Positions 6,447-9,913 of a DNA stretch of 53,080 bases are shown here, in pieces. This DNA comes from an uncultured Microcaldota archaeon (GTDB lineage Archaea > Micrarchaeota > Micrarchaeia > Anstonellales > Bilamarchaeaceae). The notes under the pieces were generated by a model. The model ran no database searches. It saw nothing but the letters and a program-made list of their open reading frames with translations, and was not told the DNA's origin. The stretch's first letter is position 1, and each line of letters begins with the position of its first letter. The position numbers were made by a program, and so were the translations under genes. Location: the NCBI GenBank assembly GCA_903828955.1, contig CAIKOA010000026.1, positions 1 to 53,080 of the forward strand. Reading direction: 5' to 3'.

Positions 6447-7625
6447 TTATCCGGATCCTGTTGTGAAGTATGCTTCGCAATTCTCCCTGGTGGTTTCTCC
6501 AACTATGTAGTTGCAAAAGCCCTTGTCATTAGCCCTCTTTGCAAGCTCCTGGAAGCATTTATCTTTCCATTCGGGAAGGCTGATTCCGCTGCATTCCTGG
6601 AGGCTGAGCTCGTGCGCGCCGAAGATCGTGCTTGAGAAGCAGATTTGCCTCATGTATTCGGTGCTCATCTCATTGCAGGCGGTTGCATCATCGTATGCGT
6701 AAGCGTACTCCCTGAAGCAGACTTCCCTGGAATTAGGAGCCTGGGTGTCGATATCGACACAGCCGCTCTTGTCACCGGTTGTAAGTGCATAATCAGTATA
6801 GCAGTTCCAGCGGTCCAGGACGAAGATTGGGTCGCAGAGCGCATCCTGGTGGTTCGCAATCGCGAAGTGGGTGAAACATAGGTAAGCTATATTGCTCTGG
6901 CTGTTTGATTGCAATACATTATAGCAGAAATCCGTATTGTTTGAGCCGACTGCGTATGTATAATAGCAGAGCTCCTGTGTAGAGCCTGAGAGGTTCAGGC
7001 AGCGGTCAGAATGCGCAAGCGCGCTCAGGCACCCTTCCATCTTTCCGGTGCTGTTTGTGAGCATCAGGCAAGCGCCCTGGTCCTGGAACTGGAATGCATA
7101 ATCCAGGGTGCAGTTCTCATCCTGGCAATAGGTGTAATTCTTGTATTCGAATGCGTAGCAGCGCGCCTTTTCCACGTATTCCGTTATGAAGGTGCACGGT
7201 GGGGAGAGGGTTTCTATGCAATCCTGCCCCTTTTGCCCGCTTATCAGGTCGCAGATTGAGATGTCTTTGAGTGCATATGCGTGATGGAGAAGGCAGCCTT
7301 CCCTCGTTGGCTGGTCAACTACCCCACGGCATGCTTCAAGAGAATCATTTGCTATTGGTATCCTGCATGAGTCCTGCTCCGCAGGGGCAAGTTTTAGGCA
7401 GTAAGACGGATCTTTGGTCGCAAGGGCCTGCGCTGCCCAGTCCTGGGCCGGTTCTGCGCCGGTTGCGTTTCCCGAAGTGTTTGGCTCCACTTGCGCGGAC
7501 CAGCTCCCGGTTTCTTCGATTATCGGGGCTTCCTTGCCTGGGGCCGGGCGCTCCTCCTTCCCAGGGCATCCGGCAAGGAGTAGGAATGAAACCGCAATCA
7601 ATAGCAAAGCAAAAATCTTTTTCAT
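6447..7625 (-). CDS. Lipoprotein with repeated Cys-pair motifs, 392 aa
   Basis: The start MKKIFALLLIAVSFLLLAGC contains a signal peptide and an LLAGC lipobox (Cys20), followed by a Pro/Glu/Thr-rich linker to about residue 60. The rest is roughly nine or ten degenerate units of about 30-40 residues, each with two cysteines about 10-16 apart, often preceded by Tyr-Ala and followed by Arg (for example DISICDLISGQKGQDC, TACNEMSTEYMRQIC). This suggests a disulfide-stapled alpha-hairpin solenoid outside the cell. ATG 7625 is chosen because it starts the signal peptide and sits about 27 bases after a TTTATA TATA box (leaderless). The family and function are unknown; peptide or protein binding is a guess. 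Confidence 0.8.
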   Translation of the reverse strand: MKKIFALLLIAVSFLLLAGCPGKEERPAPGKEAPIIEETGSWSAQVEPNTSGNATGAEPAQDWAAQALATKDPSYCLKLAPAEQDSCRIPIANDSLEACRGVVDQPTREGCLLHHAYALKDISICDLISGQKGQDCIETLSPPCTFITEYVEKARCYAFEYKNYTYCQDENCTLDYAFQFQDQGACLMLTNSTGKMEGCLSALAHSDRCLNLSGSTQELCYYTYAVGSNNTDFCYNVLQSNSQSNIAYLCFTHFAIANHQDALCDPIFVLDRWNCYTDYALTTGDKSGCVDIDTQAPNSREVCFREYAYAYDDATACNEMSTEYMRQICFSSTIFGAHELSLQECSGISLPEWKDKCFQELAKRANDKGFCNYIVGETTRENCEAYFTTGSG

Positions 7626-7720
7626 GAGGTGGAATTGGGAAGCAAGGAATATAAACATTTGGAAATGTTTCGATTTAAGTGGAAGAATGCGTAAAATTTT
7701 CTCTGACGAGAAATGATTGG

Positions 7721-7831: not shown

Positions 7832-7854
7832 ATTTGAACTCCGCAATGAAGGGC

Positions 7855-8403
7855 ATGGAAAATGTTTATGCGACACTGGAAAAAACGCAGTATGAGCTTG
7901 ATTCGAGAAGGGAAATGCTGGAACTGGCTGCCCTCTCTTTTCTTGCTTTTGCGATTCCTTTCCTATTTCCGGGGCCGCAGCTCTTAACTGGAATAATTGT
8001 GGATTCTTTTCTGGTTTTTGCCGCGTTTAGGGTTAGGGGCGCAAAGCTGCTCCCGGTGATTCTGCTTCCGAGCATCGGCGCGCTTGCAAACGGGTTCGTG
8101 TTTGGGCCGCTTACTATTTTCTTAATATACCTGATTCCGTTCATATGGGTGGGGAATTTCCTCTTCGTGTACGGAATAAAGCAGCTCGCCTTTGAGAAAG
8201 GAATGGGCTTCTGGAGCGCAGGAGCGGTTTCTGCATTGGTAAAATCGGCTGCGATTTTCATTCCTGCCTATCTTCTCTATGCCGGTGGAGTGCTGCCTGA
8301 AGCGATGCTACTCCCAATGGGAGTAATGCAGTTTGCGACTGCATCTGGAGGAGTTGCAATTGCCGGGATTGGAAAAGAAATGATTCTAAAGAGAAGGGGC
8401 TAA
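7855..8403 (+). CDS. Multi-pass membrane protein, about 182 aa
   Basis: After a charged N-terminal helix (MENVYATLEKTQYELDSRRE), the protein has about five or six hydrophobic segments: around AALSFLAFAIPFLFP, LLTGIIVDSFLVFAAF, LLPVILLPSIGALANGFVF, GPLTIFLIYLIPFIWVG, a segment with SALVKSAAIFIPAYLLY, and a final Gly/Ala-rich stretch. It ends in KEMILKRRG. The layout resembles small ECF-type S-component or ABC-2-like membrane proteins, but I cannot assign a family. Start options are ATG 7846 and ATG 7855; the latter is 26 bases after TTTAAA (7827-7832). It overlaps the convergent gene by four bases. Confidence 0.75.
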   Translation: MENVYATLEKTQYELDSRREMLELAALSFLAFAIPFLFPGPQLLTGIIVDSFLVFAAFRVRGAKLLPVILLPSIGALANGFVFGPLTIFLIYLIPFIWVGNFLFVYGIKQLAFEKGMGFWSAGAVSALVKSAAIFIPAYLLYAGGVLPEAMLLPMGVMQFATASGGVAIAGIGKEMILKRRG

Positions 8404-8797: not shown

Positions 8798-9913
8798 CTA
8801 GAGCTTTATTTTGTGGAAATAGAGCAGCTCCCGCGCCTTCTCCGAGCCAGGGCGGCCCAGGAGCTCCCGGTAGAGCATCTGCACGGTTGGGTTTTCCTGC
8901 GGGACGATTGCAATTGAGCGTTTTTTGTCTGCTGCAAGGCGCAGCCCTGCCGCCCTTGCCTTAAGAATTTCATCGTTCACTGGAAGGGGCTGGCCGGGGC
9001 CGCCAACGCAGCCGTATGGGCAGTTCATTACCTCTACGAAGTGGAATTTCCTCTCTCCGGACTCGATTTCCTTCAGGACTTTCTCGAAGTTCCCAAAGCC
9101 ATTTATGGAAACGACATTCAGGGTGTATTCGCCTATTTTCACCTGCCGCTCCTTTATGGGTTCGTTGGTGCGGAAGGATTCGGCTTCCTTCTTCACTTCG
9201 AGAATGTGCGCCATTGTAGTGAGAAGGGCTTCAACGAGGCCTCCGGTGACTCCGAAGCCTACTCCATCCTTTGAGGAGTTGGGAAGGAATTCTGAGAATT
9301 TCCCCTCATTCACCTTGCGCAGGTCCAGGCCCCTCTTCTTTGCCCACTGCGCAAGCTCGCGGGTTGTGACGACGTAATCAATATAGGTGGAGCCGTCGGA
9401 GAAGCGCTCAAGGCTTTCATATTTCTTGAGGACGCAGGGCATTATGCTCACGGAGATTATCTTCTCCTTGGGCTTGTTCAGTTTTTTGGAGAAATAATGC
9501 TTTATCACGCTGCCCGTAATCATGTGCGGGGAAGCGATCGGGGAGATGTGCTGGCAGACCTTCTGGTGTGCGCGGGAGCAATATAACCTCCAGCCGATGC
9601 AGCAGGAATTGAAAATCGGGAAGTAATTGTCGTCCTTGCGCTCGAGCGCGTTGAGGATTTCGTAAGCCTCCTCGTAGATGTTTATGTCAGCGCCAAGAGG
9701 AGTATCCACTACGTGCTTGAAGCCGAGCGCATTCAGGAGCCCGATTGTTTTGAATGTGAGGTCTTCTCCGGAGGGATAGCCGAATTCCTCGCCAATAGCG
9801 ACGCGCACTGCGGGGGCGATCTGCACAACCACGGTATTTTCTGGGTCTGCGAGCTCTTTTTCTAGCGCTGCGAAAAGCTCCTCGGGCTTATTGAGGTAAA
9901 TCTCTGTGGACAT
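8798..9913 (-). CDS. Minimal [FeFe]-hydrogenase catalytic subunit (H-cluster domain only)
   Basis: A 371-aa protein that consists of just the H-cluster domain. Motif L1 is FNSCCIGW (Cys104, Cys105), L2 is MPCVLKKYE (Cys160), L3 is EVMNCPYGCVGGPGQP (Cys298, Cys302). Other family marks are GADINIYEE (acidic proton-path residues), FGVTGGLVEALL and the C-terminal LYRELLGRPGS. All four [4Fe4S]-ligating cysteines and the proton-relay cysteine are present. There is no ferredoxin-type N-terminal domain and no accessory subunit or HydE/F/G maturase in the window. L1 deviates from the canonical TSCCPGW (Thr to Asn, Pro to Ile). Start ATG 9913 is preferred over TTG 9922; TACTTAAA at 9943-9950 is the likely TATA box. 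The reaction would be reversible H2 evolution, with an unknown electron carrier. Confidence 0.93.
   Translation of the reverse strand: MSTEIYLNKPEELFAALEKELADPENTVVVQIAPAVRVAIGEEFGYPSGEDLTFKTIGLLNALGFKHVVDTPLGADINIYEEAYEILNALERKDDNYFPIFNSCCIGWRLYCSRAHQKVCQHISPIASPHMITGSVIKHYFSKKLNKPKEKIISVSIMPCVLKKYESLERFSDGSTYIDYVVTTRELAQWAKKRGLDLRKVNEGKFSEFLPNSSKDGVGFGVTGGLVEALLTTMAHILEVKKEAESFRTNEPIKERQVKIGEYTLNVVSINGFGNFEKVLKEIESGERKFHFVEVMNCPYGCVGGPGQPLPVNDEILKARAAGLRLAADKKRSIAIVPQENPTVQMLYRELLGRPGSEKARELLYFHKIKL

Follow-up and report, generated by a model that had tools for sequence, protein, structure and literature searches.

A lineage of DPANN archaea retains, as a whole, what its sequence marks as a catalytic-type [FeFe]-hydrogenase, HydA, without the maturases HydE, HydF and HydG, and carries in their stead F2, a membrane protein that likely has the fold of an S-component of ECF transporters. 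The three maturases are held to be necessary for natural [FeFe]-hydrogenases. It is the combination of HydA and F2 without HydEFG that is new here as a system; the enzyme by itself is a further member of the minimal hydrogenases already known from DPANN archaea. The two genes lie in a stretch of 53,080 nucleotides, referred to below as the window, and their coordinates are collected in Table 1.

Table 1. Features of the window considered in the text, with the basis for each assignment.
Feature	Position	Strand	Description	Basis
hydA	8798..9913	(-)	predicted 371-aa H-domain-only (M1) group-A [FeFe]-hydrogenase	PF02906, PF02256, fold match, orthologues in 6/6 genus genomes
L1 motif NSCCIGW	9590..9610	(-)	residues 102-108; C104, C105	translation and alignment
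L2 motif MPCVLKK	9422..9442	(-)	residues 158-164; M158, C160, K163	invariant in 22 homologues
L3 motif EVMNCPYGCVGGPGQP	8987..9034	(-)	residues 294-309; M296, C298, C302	invariant in 22 homologues
F2	7834..8403	(+)	predicted six-helix membrane protein, convergent with hydA	co-occurrence, AlphaFold, Foldseek

The minimal hydrogenase

The reading frame of hydA is intact, running on the minus strand from an ATG at 9913 to a stop at 8798. A preliminary description, made from the letters of the window, had called its product a minimal archaeal [FeFe]-hydrogenase, likely one of those of DPANN, with no ferredoxin-type domain, and on both counts the description stands. A Pfam search of the 371-aa protein matched only Fe_hyd_lg_C (PF02906, E 4.7e-72) and Fe_hyd_SSU (PF02256, E 3.8e-10), with no accessory or ferredoxin-type domain. 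The best NCBIfam models are those for group A6 and group A (E 1e-81 to 1e-96), the lack of F-domains keeping the scores under the full-length cut-offs. The AlphaFold model (pLDDT 89.6, pTM 0.90) superposes on T. kivui HydA1 (TM 0.89) and CpI (TM 0.88), which are, with CbA5H, its top Foldseek matches.

The protein had also been credited with all the H-cluster cysteines in motifs L1, L2 and L3. The four cubane and bridging cysteines are indeed found (C105, C160, C298 and C302), as are the residues of the [2Fe] pocket and proton path: C104, M158, K163, M296 and the equivalents of CpI E279 and E282. C104 is the counterpart of CpI C299, the proton-transfer cysteine, and C105 that of C300, a cubane ligand; M158, C160 and K163 correspond to CpI M353, C355 and K358, and M296, C298 and C302 to CpI M497, C499 and C503. 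The H-cluster cysteines and C104, M158, K163 and M296 are invariant or nearly so in an alignment of 22 homologues, while the equivalent of CpI S319 is present in this HydA and variable among its relatives.

In a tree of 67 H-domains, which included TkHydA1, DdHyd and two Firmicute HydAs and left out Nar1 itself, the minimal HydAs of the order make up one lineage (20 rows, SH-aLRT 85) that adjoins the catalytic group-A enzymes and is distant from the HydS-like proteins of CPR. A Nar1/IOP1 identity is ruled out by the residues, the group-A scores and the fold match to CpI, the tree being one without Nar1, and a sensory HydS identity is ruled out by the residues and the position in the tree. Judged by these characters, HydA is a real catalytic-type group-A [FeFe]-hydrogenase of a Micrarchaeota-type DPANN archaeon, the contigs of its congeners bearing the label Candidatus Micrarchaeota. 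Orthologues with 73-75% identity occur in five of five congeneric genomes. Within the genus, dN/dS is about 0.04-0.11, with dS near saturation, and the gene is, so far as substitutions indicate, kept under purifying selection.

Maturases in the genome, the genus and the relatives

The preliminary description had remarked that no HydE, HydF or HydG lies in the window, and the absence in fact reaches the whole genome and all five congeners. All of the genomes compared are metagenome-assembled drafts, 71-100% complete (the source genome, of 1.22 Mb, is 95.6% complete), and one might suppose that the maturases exist and escaped detection, either because the assemblies have gaps or because the sequences are extremely diverged. 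I consider this highly improbable. Profile searches found no match to HydG or HydE in the source genome or the five congeners, nor any in the source genome even at E 1e-3, and for HydF they returned in the six genomes only generic GTPases, at 24-45 bits where the cut-off is 325. The same searches succeeded in two relatives, G027 and G038, and in several other DPANN genomes, and the joint chance that all six genomes of the genus miss one locus through incompleteness is about 8e-7. The agreement of the six and the finds in other relatives rule out an assembly gap as the cause. A cell without these three proteins would be unable to produce the [2Fe] half of its H-cluster.

G027 and G038 are the only two of the 22 HydA-bearing relatives to possess HydEFG. 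The HydA of G038 is a 555-aa multi-domain enzyme from another branch. That of G027 is nested in the tree among those of congeners with F2 and without maturases; in this genome, which is 88% complete, hydG, hydE and hydF lie in that order on one contig and F2 was undetected. Contamination as the origin of the three genes is ruled out by the native-looking tetranucleotide profile of their contig, which correlates with its own genome at r 0.80, with congeners at 0.71-0.79 and with a Firmicute at 0.09.

The missing maturases could also mean that HydA gets no [2Fe] unit at all and, with its [4Fe-4S] cluster alone, has a task such as electron transfer or sensing, and the loss of the equivalents of C299 and M353 in some CPR relatives speaks for the same reading. 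It seems to me quite improbable, given that C104, M158, K163 and M296, residues relevant to the [2Fe] unit and not to the cubane, have been kept by deeply diverged members that have no maturases. That the pocket residues stay invariant without maturases, at the dN/dS given above, argues that the [2Fe] site is still in use.

Some observations on [NiFe]-hydrogenases may be recorded separately. None was found in the source genome. Among the 59 relatives (G000-G058), the two types of hydrogenase exclude each other, PF00374 occurring in 0 of 22 with HydA and 25 of 37 others (p 6e-8). Certain relatives that have neither an [FeFe]-hydrogenase nor HydF possess HydG together with a HydE that bears a fused HypC domain (PF01455) at its N-terminus. 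Loci for HydG and HypC-HydE are L228:8388-16225 (G072), L074:8186-10800 (G032) and L075:7142-9872 (G011). A [NiFe]-hydrogenase is present in 9 of the 10 relatives with HydG and without HydA, an excess over other HydA-less relatives that is not significant (p 0.12). In G072, a HydS-like PF02906 protein stands beside F2, and the HydG/HypC-HydE pair adjoins genes for the small and large subunits of a [NiFe]-hydrogenase. There are hints here that a [NiFe]-hydrogenase may owe its Fe(CO)(CN) unit to HydG and HydE.

F2 and its association with the hydrogenase

The one claim of the preliminary description that fell is that the enzyme is stand-alone, with no partner genes nearby. About 0.4 kb from hydA, on the opposite strand, lies F2, which is conserved and follows the hydrogenase in DPANN and CPR alike. 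Its reading frame opens with a TTG at 7834, and the first ATG is at 7846 and another at 7855. In 13 relatives, from several genera, F2 is close to HydA in surroundings that are otherwise different.

A profile search of the 59 relatives found F2 and HydA together in 20, HydA only in 2, F2 only in 1 and neither in 36 (p 1.7e-12), or, counted by genus, 11/1/1/16 (p 4e-6); these p-values ignore shared ancestry, and a 24-bit fragment of F2 in G050 was left out of the counts. Of the 21 related genomes whose HydA is minimal, 20 have F2, as does 1 of the 37 without HydA. Scanned with F2, GTDB yielded 77 loci, almost all of which bear a DPANN or CPR label. A homologue of [FeFe]-hydrogenase lies within about 6 kb at 51 of the 77, many of the contigs ending early, and a PF02906 protein is present in all 50 of the F2 genomes sampled from the scan. 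The neighbor of F2 may be a minimal HydA, a HydC-HydB-HydA-type operon (with NuoE/NuoF-like neighbors) or a HydS-like CPR protein of about 260 aa, which keeps the four cubane cysteines and the equivalent of K358 and has lost those of C299 and M353. Since F2 occurs beside minimal, HydABC-like and HydS-like forms, the element they share is the H-domain. The association of F2 with HydA across lineages is well shown.

Other features of these neighborhoods are noted for completeness. At a series of loci from CPR genomes and from one unclassified archaeon (L112, L117, L120, L122, L134, L136-L139, L142, L144-L147, L151 and L154), the protein that comes directly after F2 is only about 260-285 aa long, shorter than the minimal hydrogenase in the window, and bears HydS-like motifs (SPC, GPCxxKK, CxxGC). 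The Firmicute loci L143 and L153 (Peptococcaceae CEB3 and Acididesulfobacillus) have no hydrogenase within 6 kb of F2, which sits in a different conserved neighborhood; each genome has F2, HydF, HydG and two PF02906 proteins. In the window itself, a lipoprotein-like Cys-rich protein with the lipobox LLLAGC (6447-7658, minus strand) is kept in the genus between an rps2-like gene and F2.

F2 and the maturases tend to avoid each other. Among the 22 HydA-bearing relatives, F2 and HydF coexist in none (20 with F2 only, 2 with HydF only; p 0.004). Of the 50 sampled F2 genomes, 7 have HydF and 8 have HydG, and both are missing from 42 of the 48 that are small DPANN or CPR genomes, a count given without completeness figures. 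F2 was found together with HydF and HydG in five DPANN genomes (G062, G067, G068, G074 and G075) and in the two Firmicutes. These seven, all outside the order, refute a strict one-for-one swap of HydEFG by F2 as a general rule and make of the relation a strong tendency, no law.

The sequence of F2 has no significant match in Pfam, NCBIfam or the sequences of PDB, which rules out membership in a known family, those of S-components included, and the F2 family appears to be undescribed. An AlphaFold model built from 68 sequences (pLDDT 95.9, pTM 0.90) was compared with PDB by Foldseek. Ranked first was 5edl, of YkoE type, and second TmRibU (probability 1.00, TM 0.58/0.61); the top ten also hold BtuM and two entries of ThiT (TM 0.55), and every one of these is an ECF-type S-component. 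Probability and TM-score favor the fold of an ECF-transporter S-component for F2, but the E-values (0.1-1.2) are weak, which leaves the assignment likely, short of proof. The invariant residues include Q49, Y99, N108, K137, Q166 and T169 (numbered by the reading frame), and none in the alignment is Asp, Glu, His or Cys. A proton channel or a metal-binding subunit is rejected on the lack of any invariant acidic, His or Cys residue, and the pattern fits a protein whose ligand is polar or anionic. An EcfT-like gene is present in 10 of the 20 relatives that have F2 and HydA; in the source genome its neighbors are an ABC ATPase and a further S-component-like protein. Solitary S-components exist.

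Proposed salvage of the cofactor and comparison with known systems

I suggest, tentatively and with somewhat less than even confidence in the explanation as a whole, that F2 is an importer of the [2Fe] cofactor or of one of its late precursors and that HydA disposes of the electrons of fermentation. Neighboring or host cells would release the [2Fe] subcluster or late precursor, F2 would bind it and bring it in, and the imported cofactor would insert into apo-HydA already holding its [4Fe-4S] cluster. It is possible, if doubtful, that F2 is the first known transporter of the organometallic cofactor of [FeFe]-hydrogenases and that DPANN and CPR lost HydEFG and use F2 to take the [2Fe] subcluster, or a late precursor, from their neighbors. 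What I infer here is the substrate of F2, which way it is carried, where the cofactor comes from and how the electrons travel. In favor of salvage are the absence of HydEFG, the invariant pocket, the co-occurrence of F2 and HydA, the pattern in G027, the S-component-like model and a precedent for feeding: synthetic [2Fe] given to maturase-less E. coli activated apo-CrHydA1 in the cytoplasm (PMC9400101). Against it are the patchy EcfT, the genomes with F2, HydF and HydG, the weak Foldseek E-values and the incompleteness of G027. The HydS-like partners of F2 in CPR may be non-catalytic, which also counts against it, and no documentation of a free [2Fe] pool in nature was found in the literature searched.

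The same facts can be read otherwise. F2 might import another micronutrient, or anchor or partner HydA, with maturation by some in-house route, and this would sit easily with the seven genomes that have HydF and HydG besides F2, with the different hydrogenase types that F2 accompanies, with the inconstancy of EcfT and with the many different vitamins that S-components bind as a class. I think it unlikely all the same. A subunit would hardly be encoded on a separate contig, as F2 is from hydA in genus g9, nor, as in many loci, divergently or convergently to the hydrogenase gene and not co-transcribed with it; F2 lacks the invariant acidic, His or Cys residues that ion or redox work would call for; no candidate for an alternative maturase was met, albeit without a systematic search; and a minimal HydA has no flavin partner to account for an uptake of riboflavin. 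Another reading starts from the fact that DPANN and CPR are mostly episymbionts: the host would hand HydA its cofactor by cell-cell contact, through host HydF for example, the role of F2 being unrelated to this and yet linked to H2. The missing maturases suit that reading, but it leaves unexplained how closely F2 tracks the H-domain and is improbable.

Pyruvate:ferredoxin oxidoreductase and a small ferredoxin are the probable source of the electrons for HydA. A whole-genome search for a ferredoxin, which the preliminary description had looked to for the electron donor, was rewarded with a separate 64-aa 2[4Fe-4S] ferredoxin, away from hydA, and a gene for a TPP enzyme that resembles the pyruvate:ferredoxin oxidoreductase beta subunit; a 2[4Fe-4S] delta-like protein lies near the latter gene. 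Electrons would pass from pyruvate through the oxidoreductase and the small 2[4Fe-4S] ferredoxin to HydA, and leave as H2.

If F2 does import the [2Fe] unit or a precursor, then the H-cluster would count as a shareable micronutrient, a shared "vitamin", the running of hydrogenases by episymbionts would be explained, and biotechnology would gain a route for cofactor uptake. The activation of maturase-less hydrogenases now lends itself to a test with two genes in E. coli.

Minimal (M1) [FeFe]-hydrogenases of DPANN archaea were reportedly described by Greening et al. in 2024 (Cell 187:3357). HydA is like them in consisting of the H-domain only and in its DPANN host; beside them, as they are represented in a paper citing that work, the absence of HydEFG and a membrane partner are documented here. 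The citing paper notes the recent detection of M1-type [FeFe]-hydrogenases in archaea (PMC12645427). Setting Greening et al. aside, the literature searched gave no account of maturase-less DPANN hydrogenases or of any that joins an [FeFe]-hydrogenase to an ECF S-component.

With the group-A enzymes (CpI, DdHydAB, T. kivui HydA1 and CrHydA1) HydA shares the fold (TM 0.88-0.90), all the ligands of the H-cluster and the proton-transfer cysteine. It differs from them in having no F-domains, in reading NSCC for TSCC and GGPGQP for GGGGQP, and in a host genome with F2 and without HydEFG. F2 is like the ECF S-components (RibU, ThiT, YkoE and BtuM, the last specific for cobalamin) in its six predicted helices, its length of about 180 aa and, by Foldseek, its overall fold, and unlike them in having no detected sequence similarity, in a gene tied to [FeFe]-hydrogenase and in the inconsistent presence of EcfT. 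The presumed outcome is the same as that of HydEFG maturation, a [2Fe] unit supplied to apo-HydA, but here it would be reached without HydE, HydF and HydG, by uptake in place of synthesis.
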